Virus record (IMG/VR): IMGVR_UViG_3300005529_000002
Span: 35,933 to 99,932 of that record
Source of the DNA: a virus
Length of the DNA: 64,000 nucleotides
Direction: 5' to 3' (one strand)
The translations under genes were made by a program, and so were the position numbers. The notes under the pieces are model-generated. The model saw only the letters and a program-made list of their open reading frames with translations. It did no database searches and had not been told where the DNA came from. Numbering within the stretch: the stretch's first letter is position 1; each line of letters begins with the position of its first letter. This document shows positions 2,596-36,432 of the stretch, piece after piece.

Positions 2596-3044
2596 GCCGC
2601 CACGCTTTCCTTGGCGAGGCGGATGAGGGCGTCGGCGACAGTCTGCCCTTCGGTCATCAGAGGGCGCACCGCCCGGTAGAGGTCCATGAAGGTGCTGCGC
2701 TCCCGCTCGGCCGCCGCCCGCGCCGCCTCGATGTCGCTCTGGGTCCTGGCGAACAGCGTGACCTTCGCGCAATCCAGTTCCACGCCGTCCATCAGCGCGA
2801 CCTCGGACGTGCGCCAGCGGCCGCGCTCGAGCATCGCGGCCGGGCAGGCGAGGGCGGTGGCCATTTTCCCGAGCAACTCAGGACTGGCGTTTCGGGTGCC
2901 GCGTTCGATCTCGCTGATCAGGCTGACGGTCACGCCGACCCGCGCGGCCAGTTCCGTCTTCGTCAGTCCCGCCGTCTCGCGCGCCCGCGTGACCGCCTCA
3001 GGCTCGTGATCGAGGGGGAATTTTGCTTTAGATCGCTGGGCCAT
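2592..3044 (-). CDS. XRE-family repressor, 150 aa
   Basis: A Cro/C1-type helix-turn-helix spans about residues 17-70: TKTELAARVGVTVSLISEIERG is present in two adjoining pieces (TKTELAARVGV, TVSLISEIERG). The C-terminal half is helical and may mediate oligomerisation. It is the first gene of the leftward operon and faces a second HTH gene across a region with a 16-bp perfect inverted repeat. This is the usual layout of a lysogeny switch, so it is the best candidate for the phage immunity repressor. That role is inferred from position. Confidence 0.85.
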   Translation of the reverse strand: MAQRSKAKFPLDHEPEAVTRARETAGLTKTELAARVGVTVSLISEIERGTRNASPELLGKMATALACPAAMLERGRWRTSEVALMDGVELDCAKVTLFARTQSDIEAARAAAERERSTFMDLYRAVRPLMTEGQTVADALIRLAKESVAA

Positions 3045-3058
3045 GAGGCGAACCTAGT

Positions 3059-3100
3059 GCGTAGTGGTGCGAAGGTCAAGCGAACTTCGCACCACTACGC
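3059..3100. promoter_or_regulatory. Perfect 16-bp inverted repeat, likely operator
   Basis: GCGTAGTGGTGCGAAG at 3059-3074 is repeated in inverse at 3085-3100 around a 10-base spacer. It begins 15 bases from the repressor start and lies between two divergent HTH genes. The core TGCGAAG recurs at 3144-3150 and 3154-3160 in front of the rightward gene. An operator for one or both HTH proteins is the natural reading. Confidence 0.75.
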
Positions 3101-3143
3101 GGATGATGCATACTTGTGACCGGGAGTGGGTCCTAGACGCGAG

Positions 3144-3160
3144 TGCGAAGTTATGCGAAG
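3144..3160. promoter_or_regulatory. Two direct TGCGAAG half-sites
   Basis: TGCGAAG occurs at 3144-3150 and 3154-3160, ten bases apart, immediately upstream of the ATG at 3170. The second copy overlaps the GAAGG ribosome site. Binding here would block both transcription and translation initiation of the rightward HTH gene. The same heptamer forms the inner part of the 3059-3100 palindrome. Confidence 0.55.
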
Positions 3161-3169
3161 GTGTGGCCC

Positions 3170-3742
3170 ATGGACGCGCGCCCGGAACCGCCGCCAGAGG
3201 GCGTGCTGATCGCCGCAGCCCTGAAAGACGCCCGGATCTCGGTACGCGAGGCAGCCCGGCGGGCAGGCATCAGCGAAGGCTGGTGGCGGCAGGTCGTCAA
3301 CGGCTACCAGAGCCTCAGCGGCGGCGCTTACGGAACCGTGCGGGCACCCGCCGAGACGCTCGCGCGCATGGCGCAGGCCGCCGGGGTGACCGCTGATGAC
3401 CTGACCGCTGCCGGGCGAGCGGACGCAGCGGCCGAGCTGGACAGGCTGGGCAGCGGCGCGTCCGCAGGGCCGCCCGCCGCGCCGCCAGCCCCCTACCTGC
3501 CGCCTCACGAGGACATGACCCGCGATGACGTGGAGTTCTACGAGGACCAGGTGCGGCGGGACCTGGTACGGCACGGCACGGACGCCCCGCCGGAGGTGAT
3601 CTTTCCCGGCAGCGAGCTGGAGCAGCGGATCTGGCGGGAACCGGGGATGCACCGGGAGACGAAGGTGCGGCTCATCGCGATCCGCCGGTTCGACCGGGCG
3701 CAGGCGGCGGCACTGGACCAGAGGGGGCGCACCGGGTCATGA
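3170..3742 (+). CDS. HTH DNA-binding protein, possible Cro-like switch partner, 190 aa
   Basis: The ATG at 3170 follows a GAAGG ribosome site; a GTG at 3143 would give a longer form without one. A helix-turn-helix is visible near residues 17-45 (ISVREAARRAGISEGWW), followed by a variable Pro-rich linker and a basic C-terminal helix. It is divergent from the XRE repressor and shares its operator region. By position it could be the Cro counterpart or an activator; the sequence alone does not decide. Confidence 0.75.
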   Translation: MDARPEPPPEGVLIAAALKDARISVREAARRAGISEGWWRQVVNGYQSLSGGAYGTVRAPAETLARMAQAAGVTADDLTAAGRADAAAELDRLGSGASAGPPAAPPAPYLPPHEDMTRDDVEFYEDQVRRDLVRHGTDAPPEVIFPGSELEQRIWREPGMHRETKVRLIAIRRFDRAQAAALDQRGRTGS

Positions 3743-3912: not shown

Positions 3913-4821
3913 ATGCAAGGCGCGGCGAAGCAGGATGAAGCAGCAGCGGGCACAGGCCGGGACCAGGGCGTCCTCGCCGAACTGGGGCGCTGCCTCCGCG
4001 ACACCAGGACAGTCCTGGCAAGGATCGGCCGCGACCCCCGCAACAGCCTCGCCATCGCCGAGCTCATCCACTTCGGCCATCGCATCGCCGACCTCGACGG
4101 GCCGCTCCGGTCCGCGCCGCACCTGATCGCCATCGGCGAGGAACGCGAGCGGGACCGGGCCGCGGCGCAGGCCCGCCAGCGTGCCCGCCACGCGGCACCC
4201 GGCAAGCGCCTGCTCCGCGCCGTCCCGGTAGCGGCAGCGGCAGGCGCGGCACTCAAGACCGCGTTCACCGCGGTCACCGCGCACCGGGCCGCTACCGCGT
4301 CGCTGGCTCTCGCCGCTTCCGTGGTGACCGCTGGGGGCCTCACCCTCGCAGTCCAGCCGTACCAGACGCAGACGGTGCCGCCGCAGCCTGCGGTCACCCA
4401 GGCCGCGGCCCTGGCCCCCGCCGCCGCGTTCCCGTCGGCTGTGCCCGCCGTGGTCACTCACAAGCGCAGGCACCGGCCGCGCCGCGCCGTGACCTCGCCG
4501 GCCCCGCAGCCCTCCACCGCGCCGCCGCCGAGTTCCCCGCCGCCGTCCCCGTCCGCCTCCCCCTCTCCCGGCGTCCTGGCTGTCTCATCCCCGGTGCTCC
4601 AGCTCGAGGGCGGCACCGGGGAGGTGGCCCTCACCGCGCAGGGGGGCCAGGTGTCGTGGGAGGCGTCCGCCCCTGGGTGGGTGTTCCTGTCGCCGGCCTC
4701 GGGATCCCTGGCGGACGGGGAGACGGTCACGGTCACGGTGACGTGCCACCGTGAGGGTCCTGGCAGCGCCGTGGTCACGTTCGCGCCGGGGGTCGCCGTG
4801 CAGGTCACGTGGGGCGGCTGA
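3913..4821 (+). CDS. Membrane-anchored protein with BACON/Ig-like domain, 302 aa
   Basis: The ATG at 3913 follows an AGAGGGG ribosome site. The N-terminal about 120 residues are helical and charged. They are followed by a hydrophobic segment (ASLALAASVVTAGGLTLAV), a long Pro/Ser/Thr-rich linker, and a C-terminal all-beta domain with VSWEASAPGWVFLSP and GSLADGETVTVTVT, as in BACON-like or Ig-like repeats. Such a layout places the beta domain outside the cell. The gene is monocistronic between two HTH genes and the methyltransferase. A lysogeny-time surface function is possible but only inferred. Confidence 0.7.
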   Translation: MQGAAKQDEAAAGTGRDQGVLAELGRCLRDTRTVLARIGRDPRNSLAIAELIHFGHRIADLDGPLRSAPHLIAIGEERERDRAAAQARQRARHAAPGKRLLRAVPVAAAAGAALKTAFTAVTAHRAATASLALAASVVTAGGLTLAVQPYQTQTVPPQPAVTQAAALAPAAAFPSAVPAVVTHKRRHRPRRAVTSPAPQPSTAPPPSSPPPSPSASPSPGVLAVSSPVLQLEGGTGEVALTAQGGQVSWEASAPGWVFLSPASGSLADGETVTVTVTCHREGPGSAVVTFAPGVAVQVTWGG

Positions 4822-4836: not shown

Positions 4837-5685
4837 TCAGTAAGGCTTGACCGCGACCCCGCATAGCGCGTAGCTCGGCGCGTCAGACGGCGCGGACTCT
4901 CTCCACCCGGGCCGCCATCCCCGCGCGGGCACCACGCCCGGCTTGAGCACGTCCAGGCCGGAGAACCACGTCTCCACCTCGCCGGCACTGTGGTTCCACA
5001 CGCTCCCGGCTGTGTAGACGCCCTGGATCGCCTCCCACAGCTCCGGGTCATCGCACCGGGCGACGGAGACGACCAGGACGCTGCCGGGCGCGAGCCGGGC
5101 CGTGATATCCCCGGTGATCCGCCGCGCCTCGGAAGCGCCGCAGAAGTGGAGCACCATGCCCAGCACCACGCAGCACGGCTCCTCGAGGCCGATGACGGCG
5201 CCTACGGCCGGGTCCGCGAGGATCGCGCCGGGATCGCGGATGTCGCCGGGTACCGCCGTCACCCCGGTGCCGGACAGCAGCGCCTGGGCGTGGGAGACCG
5301 CGACCCGGTCGATGTCGGCATAGACGACGCGGGCATCCCCGATGACGGCCCGTGCCGCCGTGTGCGTGTCGGTGACCTGAGTGACCGTCCCGTCCGGCAT
5401 GGGGACGGCGCCGCCTGCGGGGAGGCCGGAGCCGAGGTCGAGGTACTGGGCGATGCCCCGCTGGCGTGCGCACCAGGTGACGGCCCGTTCCAGGAACTGG
5501 CGGTTCCGCACGGCCATCTCGCGGGGCACCGGGAGATGGCCCGGCTGCGGCGGGCCGAACAGGGCTTCGACCTGCTGCGCCATTTCCCGGTCGGCGGCGA
5601 AGTTGTCTTTCCCGCCGAGCCAGTAGTCCCAGACCCTGGCGATGTTCGGCTTGCTGGTGTCGATGCCGGGTTCATGGGCGGGCAT
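4837..5685 (-). CDS. SAM-dependent methyltransferase, Methyltransf_19 (DUF574) type, 282 aa
   Basis: The ATG at 5685 has a strong GAGAGGAG ribosome site. The N-terminus SKPNIARVWDYWLGGKDNF is the signature of this actinobacterial family. Motif I, the SAM-binding loop, is YLDLGSGLPAG at residues 81-91, and an acidic residue follows in VVYADIDRVAVSHA. The length fits the family (about 270 aa). The substrate is unknown for most members. It is oriented opposite to its left neighbour and is probably an accessory lysogenic gene. Confidence 0.9.
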   Translation of the reverse strand: MPAHEPGIDTSKPNIARVWDYWLGGKDNFAADREMAQQVEALFGPPQPGHLPVPREMAVRNRQFLERAVTWCARQRGIAQYLDLGSGLPAGGAVPMPDGTVTQVTDTHTAARAVIGDARVVYADIDRVAVSHAQALLSGTGVTAVPGDIRDPGAILADPAVGAVIGLEEPCCVVLGMVLHFCGASEARRITGDITARLAPGSVLVVSVARCDDPELWEAIQGVYTAGSVWNHSAGEVETWFSGLDVLKPGVVPARGWRPGWRESAPSDAPSYALCGVAVKPY

Positions 5686-5828
5686 GATGCTCCTCTCGCT
5701 GGTGCCTGCGGCCCGTGCCGGGCGGAGGCTGGACCCGTGGCGGCCGGGGGGCATGCCGCCGTGTCCTTGCCGTCTCGCCCGGCACGGGGGGTCCCGCGCC
5801 GGGAGCGCTCCGGGACTAACGGCATCCC

Positions 5829-8209: not shown

Positions 8210-8455
8210 ATGACTGAGCGTGACGGCCCTCGCTACGATCCGCACGGCGCGCGGCTGGTCTATGCCCAGATCGCGGACGACATCGCGGGCAAGATCGCCC
8301 GCGGCGTCTACACCGAGCGGATCCCCTCCCTCGACGGCATCGTCCAGGAATACGGATGCGCCAGGATGACCGCCCGCCGCGCGGTGCGCGAGCTGCGGGA
8401 CCGGGGCCTGGTCGAGACCGTCCAGGGGAAAGGCTCGTTCGTCATCAGCCGTTAA
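8210..8455 (+). CDS. Short GntR-type winged-helix regulator, 81 aa
   Basis: The protein consists of only the GntR DNA-binding domain: QIADDIAGKIARGVYTERIPS, YGCARMTARRAVRELRDRGL and VETVQGKGSFV match its helices and wing. The usual effector domain is absent, as in many short GntR proteins of Streptomyces mobile elements. The ATG lacks a clear ribosome site and a TATCGT -10-like box lies about 12 bases upstream, so a leaderless or nearly leaderless mRNA is plausible. It faces the phased TGTAGCC repeats. Confidence 0.88.
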   Translation: MTERDGPRYDPHGARLVYAQIADDIAGKIARGVYTERIPSLDGIVQEYGCARMTARRAVRELRDRGLVETVQGKGSFVISR

Positions 8456-8608
8456 CACGATTCCCTCCCGCATCTGCTCGTGGTGATCCCGTCACGGAGA
8501 CAGTTCACATCATGAGATTCGCATGCGATAGTGATCGGCATGGAGTAGACGGGAGCACATCGGAGCACGGAATGCTCCGCCCCCTCTTGTGCTGCCGCTG
8601 GGACGCGA

Positions 8609-10048
8609 ATGGTGTGCGCGATGCCCGGGATAGACGGCGCTAGCCTGCGCGAATGGCGCAGGTCACGAGGCTGGGATGAGCCGAGGCTGGCGAGGGAGGT
8701 CCGCGAGGCTGCCCGCAGGCGCGGCGAGAGCTGCGCTGTCCAGCACGGCCTCGTCAAGATGATCAAGGCGTGGGAGCGGGGCGACCACCGCATCTCCGAG
8801 CGGTACGAGCTGCTGCTTCACGGGCTCGGGTACGGTAGCCCCCCGGAGGGCCCGGCCAGACGCGCCGTGCTCGCGGGAGGCGCGGGAGGCGCGATGCTGG
8901 CATTCGCTGACACGCTGCTGTTCGGCGGACCCGATGACAGCGGCGCGCGGGTGGCGCGTGCCGTCCGGCATCCGGCAGGGATCGACCAGGAATCGGTGGA
9001 CTCGCTCGCGGGCGTCCTGGCCGCCCAGCGGCGCACCGAGGACTCGATAGGTGCCAGGGCCGTCACTGCGCCCGTGCTCGCCCAGCTCGCCGCCATCGAG
9101 GATCTCGTCAAGGACGCGCGCGGCCCGATGCGCCGGCCGCTGATCGGGGTCGCCCAGCAGTGGGCCCAGTTCAGCGCCTACCTGAAACGGGACGCGGGCG
9201 ACCGGGCCGGGGACGCGGCCCTGCTGTCCCGTGCGCTGGAATGGGCAACCGAGGCGGGCGACGTGACGATGATCGCGACCGCGCTGACCCAGCGCGCCGC
9301 GTTCGCCCTGGAAAGCGGGGAGCTGGGGACGGCCATCGGGCTGGCGCAGGCAGCCCGGAGCGACCGGAGGGCGGCCAGCGGGCAGCGGGCCTACGCCTGG
9401 GCCACCGAAGCGCGCGCCCACGCCATGGCAGGCGACGCAGGCGCGGCGGAGCGGGCCATCGGGCAGTCGCTGGAATGCGCCGGAGACCTCACGCCGCCCG
9501 GCTCGCGCAAACCATGGCTGTACTGGATGAGCCCGGAATATTTCCAGTGCGCCAGCGGCATCGCCCTGGTGCCCCTGGCCAGCGACCCGCGTCACCGCCG
9601 CCGGGCCGTCGCCGCACTGGAGGAAGGGCACGGGGCCCTTCCGGCGGACTACCGCGCTTCGGCGTGGACGGCAGTGAACCTTGCTCACCTCGCTGCCGTG
9701 CACGTCCGCGGCGGGGACCTGGACGCGGCAGCGGACGCGGCGATGCGCGGGGCAGCGATAGCGCGCGCCACGGCATCAGCGCGGCTGGCAGTGATGCTGG
9801 AGTGCGTCAGGCGCAGGATGGAGGCGGCGGTACCGGGCCATCCCCTCGCGGACGAGCTGGGCCGTGCGCTGGAAGCCGTGCCCCTGTTACGATCCTGCTT
9901 ACGCACACCGCGTCAAGACGCCCCCGCCGGTCCGCGACTGGCGGGGGCGTCTGCTGCCTCAGCCGCCGGCGGCGGGCACCTTCAGGCCGGCGGTCATAGC
10001 CGCGAGGCCCCTGCCTGCCCGCCCCCGCCACATTCAGGTAACGGATAG
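8609..10048 (+). CDS. XRE-type regulator with TPR-like C-terminus, 479 aa
   Basis: The N-terminal about 70 residues resemble the actinobacterial XRE domain (LREWRRSRGWDEPRLAREV, IKAWERGDHRISERYELLL). A hydrophobic, Gly/Ala-rich linker (VLAGGAGGAMLAFADTLLF) is followed by about 300 residues of Ala-rich helical repeats like TPRs (MIATALTQRAAFALESGEL, AYAWATEARAHAMAGDAGAA). Such proteins regulate differentiation or secondary metabolism in hosts. The last about 50 residues are Pro/Ala-rich and include DNA for a 12-bp inverted repeat (9917-9951). ATG 8609 and ATG 8621 are both possible starts. Confidence 0.75.
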   Translation: MVCAMPGIDGASLREWRRSRGWDEPRLAREVREAARRRGESCAVQHGLVKMIKAWERGDHRISERYELLLHGLGYGSPPEGPARRAVLAGGAGGAMLAFADTLLFGGPDDSGARVARAVRHPAGIDQESVDSLAGVLAAQRRTEDSIGARAVTAPVLAQLAAIEDLVKDARGPMRRPLIGVAQQWAQFSAYLKRDAGDRAGDAALLSRALEWATEAGDVTMIATALTQRAAFALESGELGTAIGLAQAARSDRRAASGQRAYAWATEARAHAMAGDAGAAERAIGQSLECAGDLTPPGSRKPWLYWMSPEYFQCASGIALVPLASDPRHRRRAVAALEEGHGALPADYRASAWTAVNLAHLAAVHVRGGDLDAAADAAMRGAAIARATASARLAVMLECVRRRMEAAVPGHPLADELGRALEAVPLLRSCLRTPRQDAPAGPRLAGASAASAAGGGHLQAGGHSREAPACPPPPHSGNG

Positions 10049-13795: not shown

Positions 13796-14044
13796 ATGAC
13801 CGCCCAGCCCGAAGACGCCCACGAGATCATCCACCTAGGCGGCGAAGCAGCGGTGATCGTCCCGCTTGAGGAATACCGCACCCTGAAAGCACTCCGGGAC
13901 AACGCCACCCCGGACGCGATCGAGCTGGCCGAGATGGACGCCGCCATCGCAGAGCACCAGGCATGGGAGGCGGCCGGGGCACCTGGCGGCTACCTCACCC
14001 ACGAGGAAGTCATGGCCGAACTGCTGACTGAGCCTCAGCCGTGA
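13796..14044 (+). CDS. Phd/YefM-type antitoxin, 82 aa
   Basis: The N-terminal part (AHEIIHLGGEAAVIVPLEEYRTL) matches the Phd/YefM dimerisation and DNA-binding domain. The acidic C-terminal tail (EVMAELLTEPQP) would wrap the toxin. The gene overlaps the toxin start by four bases (GTGA). A TACGAT -10-like box lies about six bases upstream of the ATG, so the pair may have a leaderless autoregulated promoter. Confidence 0.8.
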   Translation: MTAQPEDAHEIIHLGGEAAVIVPLEEYRTLKALRDNATPDAIELAEMDAAIAEHQAWEAAGAPGGYLTHEEVMAELLTEPQP

Positions 14045-14271
14045 GAGTCCTGTGGCTCACCCGGGCAAAAGAGCAGGCCCGCGAGCACATGCACGACCAG
14101 GCCGCGCTCCGCGAGCTGAACGCCGCCGTCACCGCTTTAACACAGGACCCGGAACCGCCTGAGGCTTTCGTTCGCGGCGAGTACCGCAGGCTCCGCGCCG
14201 GAGACTGGCGCATCCTGTACGAGTTCCGGGGCGACCTGATTATCGTCGTCAGGGTAGACCGCGCCAGCTAA
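14041..14271 (+). CDS. RelE/YoeB-type toxin, 76 aa
   Basis: It starts with GTG overlapping the antitoxin stop. The end GEYRRLRAGDWRILYEFRGD and LIIVVRVDRAS is the RelE-superfamily core with its basic/aromatic residues, typical of ribosome-dependent mRNA interferases. The length is usual (about 80 aa). Together with the antitoxin it could stabilise the element or act in defence. A terminator follows at 14300. Confidence 0.82.
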   Translation: MRVLWLTRAKEQAREHMHDQAALRELNAAVTALTQDPEPPEAFVRGEYRRLRAGDWRILYEFRGDLIIVVRVDRAS

Positions 14272-14299
14272 GCGGCCGGGCGGTCGGTTCCCGACTTCC

Positions 14300-14345
14300 G
14301 GACATCCCGGGACACGACTGGTCCTGACCCGGGGGTGTCCGTTTT
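14300..14345 (+). terminator. Intrinsic terminator after the toxin-antitoxin operon
   Basis: GGACA-t-CCCGGG pairs with CCCGGG-gg-TGTCC around a 16-base loop and is followed by GTTTT. It lies 28 bases after the toxin stop and before a convergent gene. Confidence 0.75.
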
Positions 14346-14383
14346 GCCCGTTGGTCGGTTTCCGGCCTGCAATCGGTCCGCAG

Positions 14384-14581
14384 CTATTCGGGCCTGGGGT
14401 TCTCAGGCTCGCCGGGGCGGCGCGGAGGTTCGTTCGACTCTCCGGCCATCCACAGCAGCCATTGGGTGAATCGCTCCTCCATGGTGGAACCATCCCGGTG
14501 AACCGCTTCTTTGGCGCGCATGTAGAGGTCCCGGTCGGGCCGTAGCGGCGGCCGGAAAGTGCGCCTGTGTCGGTCTGCCAT
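14384..14581 (-). CDS. Ribbon-helix-helix-like small protein, 65 aa
   Basis: The sequence RPDRDLYMRAKEAVHRDGS followed by TMEERFTQWLLWMAGE resembles small ribbon-helix-helix proteins of Streptomyces plasmids. These often act as copy-number or partition regulators. ATG 14581 gives the compact form, with an alternative ATG at 14596. It is divergent from the WhiB operon, and the twin hairpins lie between them. Confidence 0.6.
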   Translation of the reverse strand: MADRHRRTFRPPLRPDRDLYMRAKEAVHRDGSTMEERFTQWLLWMAGESNEPPRRPGEPENPRPE

Positions 14582-14671
14582 GTTGCCGACAATCATCGCA
14601 TGATCCGCTTGCATGATGGCCCCGGCTGCCGTACCGTGAATGTGGGCATCCCACACGGAAGCCGCGACCGT

Positions 14672-14736
14672 CCTGGTAACTCGACTACCAGGAACAAGGC
14701 GGGGCATGGCCAGCGACTCGACCGCGGCCATGCCCC
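14672..14736 (+). promoter_or_regulatory. Twin hairpins with identical ACTCGAC loops
   Basis: Hairpin 1 is CCTGGTA (14672) - ACTCGAC - TACCAGG (to 14692). Hairpin 2 is GGGGCATGGCC (14701) - AGCG ACTCGAC CGC - GGCCATGCCCC (to 14736). The stems are unrelated and perfectly paired, while the seven-base loop core is the same. They end 15 bases before the AAGGAGG ribosome site of the gene at 14767, so they may be leader RNA structures of the WhiB operon. Confidence 0.65.
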
Positions 14737-14766
14737 TTGGCCCAGCCTGCTAAGGAGGCCGGACCC

Positions 14767-15066
14767 ATGGGTCATCATGCCATCACGCAGCTCTGGCTCA
14801 GCAGCCTCACCCGCCGCGCCGCTGCCTTCCTCGCCGCGGTCTTCAAAGGCCCGTGGTGCCTCGGATGCGACTGCTGCGGAACCACCCTGAAGAAGGGCCG
14901 CCGTACCCGCTGGTTCCTGACCCGTGAAGCAGCAGACCGCGCTGGTCTCGAAGCCGGCTGGCAGACCGCGGCGGGCAGGAGCGATTCCGAGATCTGCCCC
15001 GCCTGCCTGGAGCAGCGGGGCCAGGCGGTCACTTTCTCTCAGGACACCCCGGCCGGTGAGTCATGA
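14767..15066 (+). CDS. Zinc-ribbon protein leading the WhiB operon, 99 aa
   Basis: The ATG at 14767 follows AAGGAGG. A hydrophobic/basic N-terminus (ITQLWLSSLTRRAAAFLAAV) precedes CLGCDCCGTTLKKGRRTRW and a later CPACLEQ, which form a probable zinc ribbon. It overlaps the WhiB gene by four bases (ATGA). Function unknown; the 5' region carries the twin hairpins. Confidence 0.7.
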   Translation: MGHHAITQLWLSSLTRRAAAFLAAVFKGPWCLGCDCCGTTLKKGRRTRWFLTREAADRAGLEAGWQTAAGRSDSEICPACLEQRGQAVTFSQDTPAGES

Positions 15067-15350
15067 GCCTCCCCGCCTGGAGCTGGGCAGACCGCGCCGC
15101 GTGCAAGGGCACCGACCCGGACGCGGCATTGTTCTTCGGGCTGGACGGCGAGCGCGGCCCCGAGCGGGATAAGCGCGAAGCAGCGGCCCGGACAGTCTGC
15201 GCGCCGTGCCCGGTGCGCATCGCCTGCCTGGACTACGCCATCGCCAACGCCGAGCGGTACGGCACGTGGGGCGGATTCAGCGAGGACGAGCGTGCCGCTG
15301 AGCGCCGCCGCCAGATGCGCCGCGCCGCCAGGAAGCAGGCAGCGGCATGA
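15063..15350 (+). CDS. WhiB-like iron-sulfur transcription factor, 95 aa
   Basis: The four conserved cysteines are at 14, 46, 49 and 55 (CKG, CAPC, IAC), followed by GTWGG at 67-71 and a basic C-terminal tail (RRRQMRRAARK). This is the complete Wbl signature. Wbl proteins bind a 4Fe-4S cluster and act with the sigma factor; phage copies such as TM4 WhiB can block host division or cause exclusion. Here it is translationally coupled to the membrane protein and FtsK-like gene, implying joint control. Confidence 0.95.
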   Translation: MSLPAWSWADRAACKGTDPDAALFFGLDGERGPERDKREAAARTVCAPCPVRIACLDYAIANAERYGTWGGFSEDERAAERRRQMRRAARKQAAA

Positions 15351-15568
15351 TCCGCGTCCTGCTCGCCGCCATGCTGGCCGCAACCGGCCACGCAGGGGCA
15401 TCGGTACTCGTCGCCGTCCTCGTGATCGCGGCCCGGCTGGCCAGGGTCCTGCTGCCGGTGCTGCCCCAGCTGGCCGTCGCCGTTCCCGCAGTCGCGATCG
15501 TCCTGACCGGCCTCCTGGCGTTCCGGGCCGTCAAGGGATGGCCTCACCTCGCGGCGGTGGCCGGATGA
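15347..15568 (+). CDS. Small hydrophobic membrane protein, 73 aa
   Basis: The protein is almost entirely hydrophobic, with two TM segments (AAMLAATGHAGASVLVAVL and a second from LPVLPQLAV to LLAF). It has ATGA overlaps with both the WhiB gene and the FtsK-like gene. Small membrane proteins beside traB are typical of actinobacterial conjugative elements (Spd-type spread proteins). The assignment rests on position and hydrophobicity. Confidence 0.7.
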   Translation: MIRVLLAAMLAATGHAGASVLVAVLVIAARLARVLLPVLPQLAVAVPAVAIVLTGLLAFRAVKGWPHLAAVAG

Positions 15569-17736
15569 CCGCCAGCGGCCCGCAGAACCTGCCCGCCGTC
15601 CCTGGCGAGTCCGGCGCGGACGAGATCGTCGACGGGGTGATCGTCGACGAGCCGCCCGGCGTTGACGGGCCGGCGGCCGGCGTCGCCGCCGTCATCCGGG
15701 TTATCGTGCGGCCTGAGCACGCCAAGTCGGCCGGCCGTCACCTGGCCTACATCCCGCTCGGCTTCGCCGTCATGTGCCGTCGCCTGTGGGACAGCCGGAC
15801 GACAGCCCGCTACGAGCGGTTCATCCGGGCAGCCGAAGCGGCCGGGAACCACGAGGCCGCGCTGGAGTGGGACGACCAGACGCAGACGTTCCGCCGCGAC
15901 CGGCACCAGCGCCGCGTCGACATGATCGAAGTGCCCGTCCGGGTGCTGCTGATGCTCCCGAAGATCGGCATGGGCCTGCTCGGCGTTCTTCTCTGCCTCG
16001 GCATCATGCTGGCTGTCGCCACGGGGCACGTCTCCGAGGTCGCCGTCCCGGCCAGGGTGCTCGCACGGATCGTGTTCTGGACGGGACTCGTGCTGTCGGT
16101 GTCCTGGGGTCCGCTCCTGCTCTCGCTGCCCTGGATAGCCCTCGGCGCGCTGTGGTGGACCGGCCGGGCGCACGCCAACGCGAACCTGACCGGCTGGCTG
16201 GTGCCGGATAAGGACGAGGAGGACGCCGGCATCGTGGTGACGGCGGACACGATCGTGCTGGCCCTCCAGAACCTGGACAAGATCCCCGCGCTGAAGAAAG
16301 CGTTCAAGGACGGCTGGCGGCCAACATTCCACACGCTGCCGGTCAAGGACGGCCGAGGCTACTTCACGGTGTTCAGCGTCCCGCTCGGCGTCACCGCCGG
16401 GATGGTCGCCGACCAGCGGCCGGTGCTCGCCCGCAACGTGCACCGCGCCGAACCGGAGGTGTGGCCGACCGACGCCGAGAAATCCGGTCAGGGGCCGGCA
16501 GGCACCGTCGCCATGTGGATCGCCGACCCCGGCGTCCTGTCCAAGGCCGCGCCGGAGTACCCGCTCATGCACGAAGGCACCGCCGACGTGTTCACGGGCG
16601 TGCCGGGCGGGGTGGTGGCGCGCGGCGACGGCCTCCTCATCCCGGTCGTTGGCAACAACTTCGTGGCCGGCGGCCAGATGGGCCAAGGGAAGTCCAACGC
16701 CTGCCGCGTGCTCATGCTCGGCTGCGCCCTGGATCCGCTCGCCGTGCTGGACGTTTTCGTGTTCGCGAACAACGGCGACTTCGACGCGTACGCGCCCCGG
16801 CTGCACATCTACCGCAAAGGCGTCGAGGACGACGTGGTCCTGGCCGCCCTCGGCCGCCTGCACCAGCTGTATGGCGAAGTCGGCCGGCGCGAGCAGCGTC
16901 TCGCGGACCTCGGCGCGAAGAAGGTCACCCGCGGACTGGCGCAGGAGCACCCGGACCTGCGGCCGGTCATCGCCCTGTTCAGCGAGTGCCATGAGCTGTT
17001 CGGCCACCCCGAGTACGGCGAGGAAGCCGCCGACGTGGCCACCAAGACAATCAAGCGGGCGCGGAAGACCGCCGTCTCCCTGGGGTTCGACACCCAGAGC
17101 AGCCGCAAGGAAGCCATACCGCCGAAGCTGGTCGAGCTGGTCAGCGTCAACGCGTGCTTCTACGTCAAGACCTGGCGCTCCAATGACGGCTTCCTCGGCG
17201 ACGGGTCGTTCGCCGCGGGCATCCGCGCGACCGAGCTGCGGCCCGGCCGCGACCGGGGCACGTCGGTAATCACCGGCGTGTCCGAGGCGCAGTTCGAGCT
17301 GCTCCGCTGGTATTTCGTGGAGGTCAACGACGACACCGGCTATGACGCGGCGGCCGAGGTGATCGGCCGCGCCATGGCGAGCCTCGCGCCCGGCACGCGC
17401 CTGACATCAGGCGAGCCGCTGCCCGAGATCGAGCGCCGCGACCTCCTCGACGACCTGGACGAGGTGCTCGAATACGAGCGGGTCAAGCTGGCCGACTTGC
17501 CCGCGCTGCTCCGCGAGCTGGCCGGGGACTGGGGACCGTACCGGAACCTGACCGGCACCCAGCTCCGCGAGCTGCTTGATGACCTGGACGTGCGGACCAC
17601 GAACGTCGGGAACGTGCCGAGGCTCGACCCGGCCGACCTGCGCCGTGCGCTGGCCGGAAGGGGTGAGTTAGATCGCGCCCCTCTACCCGGAACAGGCCCT
17701 GCGGGCACCTGCGGACGGGGACCTAACCCCGCCTAA
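15565..17736 (+). CDS. FtsK/SpoIIIE-like DNA translocase (TraB-type), 723 aa
   Basis: The ATG at 15565 overlaps the preceding stop. Two TM segments lie at about residues 130-200 (LGVLLCLGIMLAVATG, WGPLLLSLPWIALGAL). A Walker A GQMGQGKS is at 370-377 with further FtsK-like blocks (VIALFSECHELFGHPEYG, SLGFDTQSSRKEA, FLGDGSFAAGIRATEL). This matches the membrane-anchored hexameric translocases that move double-stranded DNA during Streptomyces conjugation. The C-terminal about 60 residues may include the sequence-reading wing domain. A phased CTAAC repeat cluster overlaps and follows its 3' end, as a recognition site would. Confidence 0.88.
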   Translation: MTASGPQNLPAVPGESGADEIVDGVIVDEPPGVDGPAAGVAAVIRVIVRPEHAKSAGRHLAYIPLGFAVMCRRLWDSRTTARYERFIRAAEAAGNHEAALEWDDQTQTFRRDRHQRRVDMIEVPVRVLLMLPKIGMGLLGVLLCLGIMLAVATGHVSEVAVPARVLARIVFWTGLVLSVSWGPLLLSLPWIALGALWWTGRAHANANLTGWLVPDKDEEDAGIVVTADTIVLALQNLDKIPALKKAFKDGWRPTFHTLPVKDGRGYFTVFSVPLGVTAGMVADQRPVLARNVHRAEPEVWPTDAEKSGQGPAGTVAMWIADPGVLSKAAPEYPLMHEGTADVFTGVPGGVVARGDGLLIPVVGNNFVAGGQMGQGKSNACRVLMLGCALDPLAVLDVFVFANNGDFDAYAPRLHIYRKGVEDDVVLAALGRLHQLYGEVGRREQRLADLGAKKVTRGLAQEHPDLRPVIALFSECHELFGHPEYGEEAADVATKTIKRARKTAVSLGFDTQSSRKEAIPPKLVELVSVNACFYVKTWRSNDGFLGDGSFAAGIRATELRPGRDRGTSVITGVSEAQFELLRWYFVEVNDDTGYDAAAEVIGRAMASLAPGTRLTSGEPLPEIERRDLLDDLDEVLEYERVKLADLPALLRELAGDWGPYRNLTGTQLRELLDDLDVRTTNVGNVPRLDPADLRRALAGRGELDRAPLPGTGPAGTCGRGPNPA

Positions 17737-18663: not shown

Positions 18664-18914
18664 AGCTGTTCCGCAGGCGCGGCGTGCCTGCCAGGCCCGA
18701 CTACATGACGCAGGCAGAGCACCTCCAGGAGGCCGGACGCCTGGCCTGGGTCATTGACGACGTGATGCAGTCCCGCGCGAAGCGCAGCCTCGGCGATGTG
18801 ATCGCGCTCGCCCGGCTGCACCTGGAGCTCGCCCAGGTCGCGCGGCACAACGAGGGCACCCGCCTGGATGCCCCGCTACCAGAAGGAGAAACCCCATGTC
18901 ACTGCCGGAAATGA
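18660..18914 (+). CDS. Small hypothetical protein, 84 aa
   Basis: A basic start (MKLFRRRGVPARPDYMTQ) leads into a helical protein. Its last 19 bases overlap the mIHF-like gene. No domain is recognised. Overlaps at both ends mark it as part of the same transcript. Confidence 0.65.
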   Translation: MKLFRRRGVPARPDYMTQAEHLQEAGRLAWVIDDVMQSRAKRSLGDVIALARLHLELAQVARHNEGTRLDAPLPEGETPCHCRK

Positions 18915-19216
18915 CCCCGGAGCAGCGTGCCGAGGCGCTGCGGAAGGCCGCCGAGACGCGCAGGCTCCGCGCGGCCGAACTGGAGAAGGTCCGCAAGGGC
19001 CAGATCACTGTCACCGACGTGCTCGACAGCGGCGACTCGCTGCTGCTGCCGGTGCCCGTGCGCCGGCTGCTCCTCGCGGTTCCCGGCATCGGCCCGGCCA
19101 AGGCGGACGCCCTGCTCGACGCGATCGGCGTCAGCGCAGAGTTCCGCAAGAAGCGCCGCGTTCAGGGCCTCGGCGAGGTCCAGCGCAAGGCGCTCCGCGA
19201 GCGTCTCGCAGCCTGA
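18896..19216 (+). CDS. mIHF-like DNA-bending protein, 106 aa
   Basis: The C-terminal VRRLLLAVPGIGPAKADALL, IGVSAEFRKKRRVQGLG and QRKALRERL match the actinobacterial integration host factor: a helix-two-turn-helix that contacts DNA, then a conserved RRVxGLG motif. The N-terminus (TPEQRAEALRKAAETRRLRA) also fits. Length is as expected (105-110 aa). Host mIHF supports site-specific recombination and nucleoid structure; an element-borne copy may aid its own integration, packaging or transfer. Confidence 0.88.
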   Translation: MSLPEMTPEQRAEALRKAAETRRLRAAELEKVRKGQITVTDVLDSGDSLLLPVPVRRLLLAVPGIGPAKADALLDAIGVSAEFRKKRRVQGLGEVQRKALRERLAA

Positions 19217-19226
19217 CCTGTCCCCC

Positions 19227-19268
19227 GTCCCGCATCCGCCCGGTCCCGCTTCCGGGCGGATGCGGGAC
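19227..19268 (+). terminator. 17-bp perfect hairpin after the mIHF-like gene
   Basis: The arms 19227-19243 and 19252-19268 are perfectly complementary around an 8-base loop. The structure begins 10 bases after the stop codon. There is no T-run, so it may be an attenuator or 3'-end stabiliser rather than a full terminator. Confidence 0.6.
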
Positions 19269-19295: not shown

Positions 19296-20183
19296 ATGAC
19301 GCCCCCGGCCGCCGCCAACGGCACCCATGTCCTGACGCCGGAGTTCGTCGCGCTGCTGCGGCACCGGGAGCTTGCGGACGCCACTGCCGCAGCGACAGCG
19401 GACGCGCCGCAGCCGCGGCGGGAACCGCCATCGCTGTGGCGCCGGCAGCACCTTGACGGCGACACGGTGATCCGCATCGTGGCGGCTTCGGCAGTGCTCG
19501 GTGTCGCCGTCATCGCGGCAGTGGTCAGCTACTCGCATATCTACGACCTGGCCCGCCATCATGGCGAGTCGGGAACCGCCGCCAGGCTCCTGCCGGTGTC
19601 GGTTGACGGGCTGATCGCGTCCGCCAGCCTCGCGCTCTTGCATGCCGCCAGGAACCGCATCGACGCGCCGTGGATGGCGTACCTGATGCTGTGGCTCGGT
19701 GTCGGCGCCACGATCGCCGCCAATGTCGGGTTCGGGCTGCCTGCGGGCTGGCTGTCGGCCGTCATCGCCGCGTGGCCCGCCGCCGCGTTTGTCGGGTCGG
19801 TGGAGATGGCGCTGATGCTGGCCAGGAACAGGCGCCGGGCCGCCGCGGACTCTGGCGGGAACGGATGCCGCAAGCCGCGATGGCGGCGAAGATGGCGGGG
19901 ACAGTGCGCCTGCCGCGCCGTGCCGGATGCGGACCCTCCGGCCGCCGCCCCTCAGCCGCCATCGCAGCCAGCCGCCGCCGCCCCTCAGCCGCCAGTCCGC
20001 GCCCGCAAGCCGGCACGCAAACCCGCCATGTCGGCTGCCGCCAAATCCGCCAGGGCGGATGCGGAACTGGCCGCCAGGCCGCACCTGACCAACGCTGAGA
20101 TCGCCAAGCGCGCCGGAGTGTCGGAACGCACGGTGGAGCGCCGCCGCGAGGCGGCACGGAAAGCTGCGACAATCGGATCGTGA
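19296..20183 (+). CDS. DUF2637-like membrane protein with C-terminal HTH, 295 aa
   Basis: The ATG at 19296 follows GAGAGAGG. Four hydrophobic segments occupy about residues 55-185 (IVAASAVLGVAVIAAVVSY, PVSVDGLIASASLALLHAA, MLWLGVGATIAANVGFGL, AVIAAWPAAAFVGSVEMAL), the DUF2637 pattern found beside traB in Streptomyces elements. A Pro/Ala/Arg-rich linker leads to HLTNAEIAKRAGVSERTVERRR, a helix-turn-helix. The protein could tether a DNA site to the membrane. This is family knowledge plus inference. Confidence 0.82.
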   Translation: MTPPAAANGTHVLTPEFVALLRHRELADATAAATADAPQPRREPPSLWRRQHLDGDTVIRIVAASAVLGVAVIAAVVSYSHIYDLARHHGESGTAARLLPVSVDGLIASASLALLHAARNRIDAPWMAYLMLWLGVGATIAANVGFGLPAGWLSAVIAAWPAAAFVGSVEMALMLARNRRRAAADSGGNGCRKPRWRRRWRGQCACRAVPDADPPAAAPQPPSQPAAAAPQPPVRARKPARKPAMSAAAKSARADAELAARPHLTNAEIAKRAGVSERTVERRREAARKAATIGS

Positions 20184-24670: not shown

Positions 24671-25258
24671 ATGCCAACCTCGGACGAGCCCGGACAGCGC
24701 GGCAAGTGGTGCGCCGAGCACCAGCGGTACGAGTGCGTCAGCCCCTGCAAGGACCGCACCCCCTGCCACAGCCCCCGCATGGTGACCGGCACCGAAAAAT
24801 GCCGGATGCACCTGGGGAAGAAAGCGCAGCCGGTCATCGCCGAAGCCAGGATCGAGCAGGCCGCACGGAAACTCCTCTACCAGCACGACGCCGCCCCCGT
24901 AGCTGACCCGCTCGAAGCACTCCAGCGGCTCGCCGGCCGTGCCCTCGCTCTCGAGGAGACCATCGGCACGCTCGTCAACGATCTCCGCTCGCTCCGGTAC
25001 GAGACCGAGGCGGGCGGGGAGCAGCTCCGCGGCGAAGTGGCCGTGCTCGAGCGGGCGATGGACCGTGCCGGGCGCCTGCTAGTGGATATCGCGAAGCTGA
25101 ACATCGAGGAACGGCTCGCGAAAGTCACGATGCGGCAGGCGCAGATGGCGATGGACGCGCTCGCGGCGGCGATGGCAGGCATGGGGATGAGCGCGGATCA
25201 GCAGCAGGAGGCGCGGAGGCGTGTCGCCCGTCACCTCCGTCTTGTCCCCGCCGCTTAG
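24671..25258 (+). CDS. Putative terminase small subunit, 195 aa
   Basis: The ATG follows GGGGAGG. An N-terminal Cys/His zinc site (CSPRMVTG is replaced here by CHSPRMVTGTEKCRMHLG) precedes long helices (ALALEETIGTLVNDLRSLR, VAVLERAMDRAGRLL). This layout is that of small proteins encoded just before the large terminase in actinophages. Small subunits recognise the packaging site and form rings. The assignment rests on position and layout, as no clear HTH is present. Confidence 0.65.
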   Translation: MPTSDEPGQRGKWCAEHQRYECVSPCKDRTPCHSPRMVTGTEKCRMHLGKKAQPVIAEARIEQAARKLLYQHDAAPVADPLEALQRLAGRALALEETIGTLVNDLRSLRYETEAGGEQLRGEVAVLERAMDRAGRLLVDIAKLNIEERLAKVTMRQAQMAMDALAAAMAGMGMSADQQQEARRRVARHLRLVPAA

Positions 25259-26921
25259 CACGGACCCGTTCGCGGCAGCGCTGGCCGGCCGGCTCGACCC
25301 GCCGCCGCCCCGGATCCCGGAACGCCAGTGGGGGACGCCCGGCGAGCTTGCGCGGGCCGTGGATCCGTCCACGGTGCAGACACCGGCGCTGGACCTGATC
25401 GATGAGGCGCTCGTCTGGGCGTACTCCACGCCCGGTGCCAGGCTGATCGTGTCGATCGGGCCTCAGGAAGGCAAGTCGACCAGGATCTCCAAGGTCGGGG
25501 TGCTGTGGGCGCTGATCCGCAACCCCGAGACGCGGATCGGGATCGTCTCCTACGCGCAGCCTCTCGCGGAGTCTTTCGGCCGGGAGATCCGGAACTGGAT
25601 CACCACGTTCAACGGCGATGACGGTGCGCTGGACCTGGGCTTGCGCATCGCCCCGGATTACGGGTCGGCGAAGCGCTGGCAGCTCGCGGGGCACCGGGGC
25701 GGCGTGCTGTGCGCGGGTCTCCAGGGCGGGATATCGGGGCGCCCGCTCGACACGCTCCTGATCGACGACCCGTTCGCCGACCGCAAGCAGGCCGACTCGG
25801 CCTACTACCGCGAGCTTGTCTGGGAATGGTGGCGTTCGGTCGGTTCCCGGCGCCTGTCACCTGACGGCCCGGTGATCCAGGTGGCTACCCGCTGGCACGA
25901 GGATGACCTTGCCGGGCGGATGCTCGCGGCCGAGGACGGCCACCGCTGGCGGCTGGTCAACATCCCGGCGCTGGCTGACCATGACCCGGCGAAAGGGCAG
26001 TCTGACCCGCTCGGCCGGGAACCGGGGCAGTGGCTCAGGTCCGCCCGCGGGCGGACTGATGCGCAGTGGGAGCAGATCCGGATCGAATCCGGGTCGCGGA
26101 ACTTCGCCGCCCTGTACCAGGGGCGCCCGTCTCCCGATGCGGGGAACGTGTGGAAGCGCCCGTGGTGGCGCAGGTACCGCGAGCCGCTGTGGTCCCAGCA
26201 TCCCCAGGTCCCCGGCGCGTACCTGGTCCGCGACGTGGATGAGCTCGTCATGTCGTGGGACATGACGTTCAAGGACACTAAAGGCTCCGACTTTGTCGCC
26301 GGCGGCCTGCTGGCGCGCCGCGGCGCGGACGTGTTCCTGCTCGACGTGATCCGCAAGCGGCTGTCGTTCCCTGACACCCTGACCGCCTTCGCCGCGTTCT
26401 GTGCCCGGTGGCCCGGCGCTACCGCGAAATACGTCGAGGACAAGGCCAACGGGCCGGCGGTCATCTCGACGCTGCGGTCGAAAATCCCCGGCATTGTCGC
26501 GGTCAACCCGAAGGACTCCAAGTACGGGCGGGCGACCGCGGTCGCGCCGTTCGTGGAAGCCGGGAACGTCCTGGTGCCGGACGCGGAGATCGCGCTTTTC
26601 GACCCTGAGGAACTGATCTCCGAAGCGGCGGCATTCCCTAACGGCTCGCATGACGACCTCGTGGACATGATGAGCCAGGGACTCGCGGAGCTGCTGTTGG
26701 ACGGGACCGGCGCTCAGGCGTGGATCGAGTGGGCGCGGAAGAAGGCCCTCGCCGCGCAGGGGACAGCGCCGGAGGCCGGCGCGCCGGAACCGGAACCGGA
26801 ACCGGAACCGGAACCGGACCCTGAACCCGGTGTGCCGCTCACCCCGGAGCAGGCGAGGAAACAGGCACGGGACGAGATGTACCGGCAGCAGCGGGAAAGG
26901 GCAGCTTCTTGGCAGAGGTAG
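25221..26921 (+). CDS. Terminase large subunit, 566 aa
   Basis: The GTG at 25221 follows AGGAGG and overlaps the small subunit. The ATPase has a Walker A-like GPQEGKST at 80-87 and a Walker B TLLIDDP around 178-184. The RNase-H-like nuclease has Asp347 in SWDMTF, EDKANGPAVI, and Asp478/479 in SHDDLVDMM. These are the expected acidic residues. It packages DNA into the prohead and cuts it. A Pro-Glu repeat tail encoded by CCGGAA repeats lies near the C-terminus. Confidence 0.95.
   Translation: MSPVTSVLSPPLSTDPFAAALAGRLDPPPPRIPERQWGTPGELARAVDPSTVQTPALDLIDEALVWAYSTPGARLIVSIGPQEGKSTRISKVGVLWALIRNPETRIGIVSYAQPLAESFGREIRNWITTFNGDDGALDLGLRIAPDYGSAKRWQLAGHRGGVLCAGLQGGISGRPLDTLLIDDPFADRKQADSAYYRELVWEWWRSVGSRRLSPDGPVIQVATRWHEDDLAGRMLAAEDGHRWRLVNIPALADHDPAKGQSDPLGREPGQWLRSARGRTDAQWEQIRIESGSRNFAALYQGRPSPDAGNVWKRPWWRRYREPLWSQHPQVPGAYLVRDVDELVMSWDMTFKDTKGSDFVAGGLLARRGADVFLLDVIRKRLSFPDTLTAFAAFCARWPGATAKYVEDKANGPAVISTLRSKIPGIVAVNPKDSKYGRATAVAPFVEAGNVLVPDAEIALFDPEELISEAAAFPNGSHDDLVDMMSQGLAELLLDGTGAQAWIEWARKKALAAQGTAPEAGAPEPEPEPEPEPDPEPGVPLTPEQARKQARDEMYRQQRERAASWQR
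26784..26818. repeat. CCGGAA hexanucleotide repeat
   Basis: Five perfect CCGGAA copies and a partial sixth encode an alternating Glu-Pro stretch near the end of the large terminase. Such a tract can change length by slippage without breaking the frame. Confidence 0.9.
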
Positions 26922-27733: not shown

Positions 27734-30700
27734 ATGAGCCTCCGGTCCCGCGCGGCACTCCTTGACCGGCCCGGCAGCACCGTGGCCGTCGCCAAGACGT
27801 TCGGTCCCGGTGTCCCGGAGTCGTTCCGGCAGGGCGAGCAGCAGTCCCAGATGACCCCGTCGTCCCCGTTCTCGCCGGGGACCCCGATCGGGCCGTACGA
27901 CGGATACGACCGGGTACCGCGATCCCGCGATTTCGTCACCGGGTACAACATCGCGGCCCGGCCCCGGCTGCACGAACGGGTGTCGTTCGGCACGCTGAAG
28001 GGCCTCATCGAGGCGTACGACGTCGCTTCCTTGTGTATCTGGCACAGGATCGACTCCATCCGGTCCCTGGACTGGAAGCTCGTCTCCGCTGACCATTTCG
28101 ACGGCGACGTCACCGACATGGTGCCGCTCGGCCTCGCCGCCCTGTACAAGCCCGACCGGGAGAACTACTTCGACACGTGGCTGGCCCGGTGGCTGTACGA
28201 CGTGCTGGCCTACGACGCCGCGCCGCTGTACCGGCTGCGGACCCGCGGCGGCCGGGCCGTGGGACTGATGCCGTTTGACGGGACCAGCCTCGCCCCGCTA
28301 CTCGACTACTGGGGCCGCTCCCCGGCCGCGCCGGCACCCGGCGAACCCGAGCCGGAAGCTTACGTCCAGTACGCGAACGGGCTGCCGTGGGGGTGGCTGA
28401 CCCGCAGCGACGTGATCTACCAGCCATTCCGGCCGCACAACGACTCGATCTACGGGCAGGCCCCGATCGAGACGATCATCCTGAACGCCAACACCGACCT
28501 GAGGTTCCAGGTCTACTTCCTCCAGCGCTTCACTGCAGGGAACCTGCCCGCCGCGTTCGCCTCCGCCCCTGAGTCCTGGGGCCCGGACCAGATCGAGCAG
28601 TTCCAGGTGCTGTGGGACAGCTTCATGTTCGAGGATCAGTCCCGCAAGCACCAGGTGCGGTGGATGCCGCCCGGCAGCAAGTTCGTCTGGTCGAATGAGA
28701 AGGACTTCTCCGACCAGTTCTCCCTGTTCCTGATGCGGAAGACTGCCGCCGCGTTCCATGTCGTGCCCGCCGACCTCGGGTTCACCGAGAACGTGAACAG
28801 GTCGTCGGGCGAGTCGCAGGCCGACGTGCAGCACCGGGTCGGGGACCTGCCGCTGATCCGGTACATACAGCGGGTCATCTCCAGTTTCCTGCAAGACGAC
28901 CTCGGTCTGCCGCTCAAGTTCGCGTTCGACATCGGCGAGGAGCAGGACGACCGGCTCGCCCAGGCCCAGGCCGACGACATCTACATCAAGAACGGCACGG
29001 TGTCGCCGAGTTACATCGCGGAGATGCGGTTCGGCCGCACTGACGCACGGCCGGTCCCGAGGTTCATCTTCACCGAGCGCTCCGGGCCGATCCCGCTGAA
29101 CTCGCTGGAAGCGGTGGCGGGGGAAATCGACCCGGCGACCGCCGCACCCGCGCTGGAGGCGGCGCTCCCGCACCAGGTGTTCGAGGAGGCCCCCGGCGTC
29201 GAGCCGAACCCGCCGCTGTACGGGCAGCCGCTCGCGGAGGAGATCTACGGGCCGTCCGCGATCCCGGCGCACACCGAGACGCAGTCCGCGCAGCCGGTGC
29301 GCGAGCCGGACGAGGCCGGGCAGGTCCGCAAGGAGATGGCGGCGTTCCGGAATTACAGCAGGAAGCGGCGGCAGCGCGGGGTGTGGCAGGACTTCGGGTT
29401 CCGTCACGTCCCGGCAGCCGAGGCGGCGCTGCTGAACGCCGAAGGCAAGCGCACGGTCGTCAAGGCCGCCTCCGGCCCGGACCTCAGCCCCGGTTCCGGC
29501 ATGATCTCCCTCGACCTGCCAGACGGCCTGATCGACCCGGTGCAGGGCGGCGTCACCGATCACCATGTCACGATCGTCTATCTCGGCCGGGACGTGGACG
29601 ACGAGGCGTTCGAGGCAGCATGCCTGCGCGCAGCGTCGGCCGCGGCGGGGATGCCGGGGCCGCTGGAGGCACAGGTGGGCGGCATCGGATCGTTCCCGCC
29701 CTCGGATGGCAGCGACGGGAAGATGCCCGTGTGGGCTGGGGTCACAATGCCGGGCGGGGAGCAGCTCCGCAGCGCACTGGCTGACCTGTCGGCCAGCGAG
29801 CACCCGGAGTGGAAACCGCACGTCACCCTCGCCTACGCCGAGCCGGGCGACCCGCTGCCCAGCCCGGTTCCAGCTGTCCCGGTGACGTTCACGCACCTGT
29901 CCGTGCACCGCGGCGGCGACGTGGCCAGGTTCCGTCTCGGCGGGGAGCCCGGCCCGGCCGGCTGCTGCGGCGCGGAGTGCTGCACGAGTGAAGGCGGATG
30001 CTGCGGCGGCTCCGCAGGTTGCCAGTGCGCCGCCAGCAGCGACATAGCCAAGGCGGTGGTGACCGGCCCAAAAGCGTGGCCCGGCTGGGAGCTTGACCTC
30101 CCCGCAGCCGGGTACTGGGCTCCTCTCCTCGCCGCCGCTCTTTCCGGGGCGCTGAGCAGGACCCGTGCTGAGCAGATAGCCCGCGCCTGGCTCGCGGAGC
30201 ACCCGCAGGACCAGCCGGAGCAGGGCAGGCGGGAGACCGTCGAAGCCGCCGCCGCATGGCTGTACGCGCAGGGCCTGGACCTCGTCTCGCCTATCACGCC
30301 GCTCATGCCGGGGATGATCGCGGACGCCGCCCTCATCGGCGGAGTGAGCGCGGCAGCGGCAGCGGACGGCACCCCGGCGGACACCGGGGACTGGCAGCCG
30401 GGGAACCAGGGCGCGGCACGGGACCGGGCGGAAGCACTCGGGCTCGGCGCTGTCCTCGGTGCCGCGCAGGACCGCAGCGACCAGGACGCGCAGCAGGCGG
30501 CCGGCGGGTACATGACCTCCCTGGCCCGCGTGCTGGCTGACAGCGCGTCGTCAGGACTGGGTGCGGCTGCTGCCGGGGCGGCGCTCCTCTCGGCGCTCAG
30601 CGACCCTGAGGCGGCCGGGCGGACGGTGCTGGGCGTGCTCGTCACCGGCATCGGGGCGGCGGCGCTCGCGCTGTACCTGGCACGGAAGGTGCAGCGGGTC

Positions 30701-36395: not shown

Positions 36396-36432
36396 CTGCC
36401 GCAAGGCCGGCCCCGTCCCGGCCTTGCGGCAG
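36396..36432 (+). terminator. 15-bp perfect hairpin after the capsid gene
   Basis: The arms 36396-36410 and 36418-36432 pair perfectly around a 7-base loop, 18 bases after the capsid stop. No T-run follows, so partial termination or 3'-end protection is likely, giving excess capsid mRNA. Confidence 0.65.

Follow-up and report, generated by a model that had tools for sequence, protein, structure and literature searches.

Why should two neighbouring hairpins at the head of a phage operon share one loop while their stems differ? The question was raised by a stretch of 64,000 nt (positions 35933-99932 of the 99,932-bp IMG/VR virus record IMGVR_UViG_3300005529_000002), the whole of which was analysed and is called the window here. 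The first hairpin, H1, reads TCCTGGTA[ACTCGAC]TACCAGGA, with a loop closed by GTA/TAC, and the second, H2, reads GGGGCATGGCC-A-GCG[ACTCGAC]CGC-GGCCATGCCCC, so that exactly the seven nucleotides ACTCGAC close both of these different stems (Table 1). The first-pass annotation had reported the identical loops, which can be read directly from the sequence, on stems of 7 and 11 pairs, and the loop coordinates that it gave are correct. The second figure holds for H2, where a bulged A and three more pairs follow, but H1 begins one base earlier and has eight pairs. The CAA of the linker is able to pair with TTG at 14737-14739, giving H2 a short outer stem. The minimum free energy structure predicted by RNAfold for 111 nt contains both H1 and H2, and is markedly more stable than those of shuffled sequences (-57.3 kcal/mol versus -41.9 +/- 3.8, z = -4.1).

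The genes downstream are, in their content, those of the transfer type of actinomycete AICEs, and we therefore call the operon transfer-type. It had been annotated as a WhiB operon; the WhiB gene is indeed present, but it comes second, and the operon appears to be primarily of the AICE-transfer type, with its TraB-like FtsK and its DUF2637 protein. In the three annotated phage records examined WhiB lies mid-operon, which makes a "WhiB leader" the wrong class for comparison. The TraB-like protein of the window shares 40% identity over 398 aa with that of the L440 AICE, which itself clears the PF01580 cut-off, and GntR-type and HTH-type regulators are common to the window and this AICE (record 44193-44375 and 44679-45617; window 8210-10048). 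The phage operon may serve DNA transfer, and we assume that a single transcript spans the whole of it. The first gene, orf1, matched nothing in Pfam, NCBIfam or PHROG; one relative, at 84% identity, was found in locus L023, where the upstream DNA differs from that of the window. On the other side of the hairpins lies a toxin-antitoxin-like pair (13796-14271), made of an 82-aa ORF (13796-14044) and a ParE-type toxin (14041-14271; PF05016, E 9e-9). A possible small gene of 65 aa (MADRHRRTF...; 14384-14581, minus strand) is divergent from orf1; it had no relatives in viral contigs or plasmids, and no TANNNT -10-like site was found nearby on the minus strand (14580-14780), so that it may not be a gene. 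Elsewhere in the window, two long perfect inverted repeats resemble terminators (19227-19268, 17-bp stem and 8-nt loop; 36396-36432, 15 bp and 7 nt).

Table 1. Features of the phage record and of the hairpin locus. Positions refer to the window except where the record is named.
Feature	Position	Strand	Description
Terminase large subunit	25221-26921		phage record
Portal protein	27734-30835		phage record
Tyrosine integrase	record 2665-3210		near the record's far end
Predicted promoter	14609-14637	+	TTGCAT-N17-TACCGT; start expected near 14644
Hairpin H1	14671-14693	+	8 perfect pairs; loop ACTCGAC at 14679-14685
Linker	14694-14700	+	ACAAGGC, 7 nt, between H1 and H2
Hairpin H2	14701-14736	+	11 bp, bulged A, 3 bp; loop ACTCGAC at 14716-14722
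Possible third hairpin	14737-14762	+	holds part of the Shine-Dalgarno; RNAfold prediction
Shine-Dalgarno	14752-14758	+	AAGGAGG, strong; from the sequence
orf1, 99 aa	14767-15066	+	CxxC-type cysteine pairs; start codon ATG
WhiB-family protein	15063-15350	+	Pfam PF02467, E 2.1e-21
Small hydrophobic (membrane-type) protein	15347-15568	+	from translation; without family match
TraB-like FtsK/SpoIIIE-type translocase	15565-17736	+	weak PF01580 match, E 0.0033, below cut-off
Actinobacterial IHF-type protein	18896-19216		downstream of the TraB-like gene
DUF2637 membrane protein (AICE-type)	19296-20183	+	PF10935, E 2.3e-13

The hairpins seem to be placed in the leader of this operon. A scan of the plus strand of the 64-kb window for TTGNNN-N16-18-TANNNT returned a sole match, the predicted promoter, 34 nt upstream of H1. 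With transcription starting where predicted, both hairpins would fall within a leader roughly 120 nt long, and would presumably be transcribed. H2 ends 30 nt before the start codon of orf1, with the Shine-Dalgarno 15 bases past it. The leader location proposed in the annotation is thus supported, and the ribosome site lies where it was stated.

Could such a pair of loops arise by chance? ACTCGAC occurs nine times in the 99.9-kb record, and the two occurrences that fall within hairpins are those of H1 and H2. We took the frequency of hairpins of at least eight pairs with equal loop length and no more than 80 nt apart, multiplied by the probability of loop identity. This gave 0.022 identical-loop pairs expected in 2.17 Mb of GC-rich sequence and 0.00064 per 64 kb, for one observed, H1/H2; the figure is post hoc, concerning one feature type among many, and is by itself suggestive rather than decisive. 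That ordinary GC-rich leader hairpins came to share a loop, with look-alikes in two genomes, has in its favour this choice of the feature after the fact, the 0.0006 pairs per window, which are not negligible over many windows, and the large number of genomes, about 1,000, on which the model described next was run. We nevertheless hold it to be very improbable, given what was found at two further loci.

These loci were found with R1, a covariance model for which the window was the sole source and which was searched against actinobacterial genomes (396 of the phylum, 299 of another order and 300 of the Actinomadura formosensis family). The best two matches of R1 in the 300 genomes of that family, L367 (37.8 bits) and L368 (36.2 bits), come from two unrelated bacterial genomes. 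L367 reads GGGCGGAGGTCGGCG[ACTCGAC]CGCCGACCTCCGCCC, with 15 perfect pairs, and L368 reads GGGGCCCGGGC-C-GGCG[ACTCGAC]CGCC-GCCCGGGTCCC, also with 15 pairs. Both have a loop identical to that of the window and the GCG/CGC closure, on a stem that is otherwise different, and both are in sense orientation; their outer flanks are CAA/TTG, as in the window, for L367 and GGTTA/TAACC for L368. L367 is a single hairpin and belongs to a pSAM2-type AICE, where the DUF2637 gene starts 42 nt further on; this AICE carries RepSA (PF20199, E 5e-167), GntR genes, an integrase and a TraB-like protein with 40% identity over 398 aa to that of the window. In L368 the distance is 36 nt, to the first ORF of an operon containing a DUF2637 gene, and the layout is that of the window, namely a promoter-like TTGCCT-16-TATAAT, twin hairpins and then AGGAGGAG; its strong front hairpin, CCCCCGCTC-TCTGA-GAGCGGGGG, has a loop other than ACTCGAC. 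With about 0.02 such matches expected for each across those 300 genomes, L367 and L368 appear convincing through their joint genomic context and not through the E-value of each alone. That identical loops on 15-bp stems, with unchanged closing pairs and orientation, were found twice before DUF2637/TraB-type genes is difficult to reconcile with coincidence.

The window, L367 and L368 thus have in common ACTCGAC, the GCG/CGC closure (of H2 in the window), a covarying stem, the sense orientation, a distance of 30-42 nt to the start codon and transfer-type genes downstream. In A6, an alignment of the three H2-type hairpins, all 14 H2 pairs form in every sequence and five of them change on both sides (nine double-changed cells); none of 500 shuffles reached any of these measures, and versions slid out of register paired at 37-51%. 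This covariation is supporting and not independent evidence, the hits having been found by a structural model and the alignment fitted to it. As a control, 30 other GGCGACTCGANCGCC sites in 120 genomes of the class have stems of at most 9 bp, versus 15 in L367 and L368, and a stricter DNA pattern, which combined the closed loop with an AAG..GG flank, retrieved true hairpins only at L367 and L368 among 343 genomes of the A. formosensis family. Over these three loci and four hairpins, which form the evidence base for a shared element, structure, loop identity, covariation, orientation and genomic position are established at the level of sequence. The annotation had taken the constant loop on differing stems as a sign of selection on structure, and this gains support from the intact pairing at two further loci before transfer-type genes. 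We conclude that the hairpins are probably an undescribed small RNA control element and not a coincidence.

Hairpins of this kind could also be U-less (I-shaped or tandem) terminators, or structures protecting the mRNA, which insulate the operon and whose common loop is inherited or favoured for its stability, without being read. The stems are GC-rich, very stable and lack a U tract, as in actinobacteria, where U-lacking structured 3' ends are widespread (PMC8269248). In L367 and in two TraB-related loci, L012 and L013, the stop codon of a gene read in the same direction directly precedes the hairpin, and related elements carry hairpins with other loops at that place. In the window and in L368, however, the hairpins come after a predicted promoter and before the Shine-Dalgarno and ORF, where constitutive termination would shut off the very operon that follows, and inheritance does not explain a loop that stays constant beside wholly replaced stems. 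No intrinsic terminator with a U tract (GC stem plus T run) was found at 14250-15100. We regard termination or protection of the mRNA as the main rival explanation, possible but less likely.

A site acting at the level of DNA seems quite unlikely, be it a single-strand origin (sso), another single-stranded or cruciform hairpin, or the cis locus of TraB transfer (clt). The hairpins adjoin TraB operons, as do the clt loci of Streptomyces conjugative plasmids, which lie near TraB-type genes and hold inverted as well as direct repeats (PMC3583192); clt has not been described for pSAM2 (PMC9513070). The L440 AICE encodes a RepSA rolling-circle initiator, and paired stems would be needed in single-stranded DNA too. 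Yet clt consists of sets of multiple short direct repeats that are bound as duplex DNA (PMC3583192) and do not demand complementary arms, whereas the 7-bp ACTCGAC is present in hairpins twice in the window and only once each in L367 and in L368. A comparison of the RepSA region of L440 with the phage record gave no match at E 1e-4, and the constant orientation and distance to the start codon suit a leader better. We agree with the annotation that a plain double-stranded operator is less natural, as the stems differ. A core site of a tyrosine recombinase, with arms around a shared spacer, was rejected, since such a site calls for similar arms and these differ.

A fixed loop and closure on a replaced stem, with the orientation kept and the distance nearly so, point to a reader that recognizes the loop within a folded single strand, RNA being the simplest candidate. 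We therefore propose, with moderate confidence, that the hairpins form a structured 5'-leader RNA element of AICE-transfer-type operons, the loop of which would be read by a putative trans-acting factor that tunes expression. The working unit would be a stable hairpin with a stem free to vary and a constant 7-nt ACUCGAC, plus the GCG/CGC closure in H2-type copies. The reader might be a protein or an antisense RNA, from the mobile element or from the host, and would act at a site some 30-45 nt ahead of the first start codon. Via translation, read-through of the leader or mRNA decay, it would then tune how strongly the transfer-type genes are expressed; loop recognition, regulation and the direction of regulation are what we infer from the arrangement. 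The two copies in the phage would offer two binding sites. The loops had also been suggested to kiss, through the self-complementary UCGA. This we consider unlikely as a conserved function, because only these 4 bp could pair and both relatives lack a second copy of the loop, the AICE carrying one hairpin and L368 a twin whose loop differs. Counting against a loop-read element are the small number of loci, the lack of an ACTCGAC loop in most TraB relatives, and the presence of other loops in comparable places. What is known of how AICE/TraB transfer genes are controlled mainly concerns repressors of transcription, for instance KorSA of pSAM2, which is of the GntR type. A leader RNA with fixed loop and free stem, if confirmed, would add a control point for transfer genes after initiation, and the element would be a marker for related transfer operons in phages and chromosomes.

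The closest designs among described elements are the ANTAR-target RNAs and the guanidine-II riboswitch, and membership in any named family is not supported. When the window and the leader were scanned with Rfam, nothing reached gathering level, and the other matches were at chance level, among them one to an R1162-like antisense RNA (13.5 bits versus a cut-off of 55). ANTAR-target RNAs (EutV, NasR, AmiR, actinobacterial) resemble the phage element in that an mRNA leader holds two neighbouring hairpins whose loops are alike and whose stems vary, often near the ribosome-binding site. They have two stem-loops joined by a linker of 2-25 nt, and hexanucleotide loops with A1 and G4 (PMC3369931, PMC8164766). 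H1 and H2 show the two stem-loops and the short linker (7 nt), but their stems are much longer, and their loops are heptaloops with A1, C4 and G5 on perfect stems that leave no hexaloop register; the assignment was rejected. The ANTAR domain (PF03861) had no match in the record, control genomes being equally silent; a protein of the host might take this part. The guanidine-II riboswitch (mini-ykkC) also consists of two hairpins, with like and partly self-complementary loops, upstream of the Shine-Dalgarno, joined by a linker of 7-40 nt (PMC7544219). It was discarded, as its loops are tetraloops versus 7 nt here, there is no Rfam match, and the single hairpin of L367 means that a kiss of two loops is not conserved. 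The U-lacking (I-shaped) or tandem terminators of actinobacteria are alike in their GC-rich, U-less stem-loops, and differ from the hairpins of the window and L368, which stand after a promoter and before the Shine-Dalgarno and keep their loop while stems change.

How widespread is the loop? Searches based on proteins (TraB, orf1, the possible minus-strand ORF, WhiB, terminase) and on loop pairs did not find the twin hairpin elsewhere. No ACTCGAC hairpin was present in L009-L022, the TraB relatives from genomes and viral contigs, or in the 80 loci related through the phage's terminase, and two loop-pair scans of viral contigs contained no second twin hairpin among the 363 ACTCGAC pairs listed. 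Searching plasmids by blastn with the leaders of L367 and L368 yielded no credible match, and R1 gave weak, chance-level matches in the known loci, the 396 phylum genomes and the 299 genomes of another order. The covariance search thus recovered fixed-loop hairpins in L367 and L368, before transfer-type genes, but most TraB or WhiB relatives lack the ACTCGAC loop. The best of those weak matches, in L239 (1501-1566, minus strand; R1 38 bits), with the loop ACTCGAT (GGCG/CGCC closure) in the H2 position, has a different first loop and adjoins a cysteine desulfurase gene; it is likely due to chance or a terminator. Separately, a nearly identical 69-nt match to R1 recurs in at least four genomes (L370-L373, 1501-1569, minus strand), with an H2-like stem GGCCAGCG/CGCGGCC and the loop ACATGAT, and could be coding.

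Several related loci carry strong hairpins with other 7-nt loops, which were spotted by eye or with a permissive folding scan. L010 and L011 have CTTCGCA, after a promoter-like TGGACA-17-TACCGT (L010 5189-5235), L012 has CCTCGAA (5716-5756) and L013 has ATGAAAG (5198-5233). The hairpins of L010, L012 and L013 lie in leaders or between genes, immediately ahead of DUF2637 or TraB genes, and are possible loop-variant relatives. Plasmid III of Nonomuraea gerenzanensis (L463, NZ_LT559120.1), a phage-plasmid reached via a DUF2637 protein of 64% identity, has an intergenic hairpin (4522-4560) with the loop AGGTGAT before its DUF2637 gene. A wider, and in our view unlikely, reading is that a leader hairpin of actinobacterial conjugation operons (AICE/TraB), sometimes doubled, represents a new class of cis-regulatory RNA, in which the loop would be the address for an element-specific factor; ACUCGAC, CUUCGCA, CCUCGAA, AUGAAAG and AGGUGAU would then be specificity groups, and the phage would have acquired one with its transfer operon. 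The loop region of the Nonomuraea plasmid hairpin, GGAGGTGATCC, matches the anti-Shine-Dalgarno end of 16S rRNA over 11 nt.
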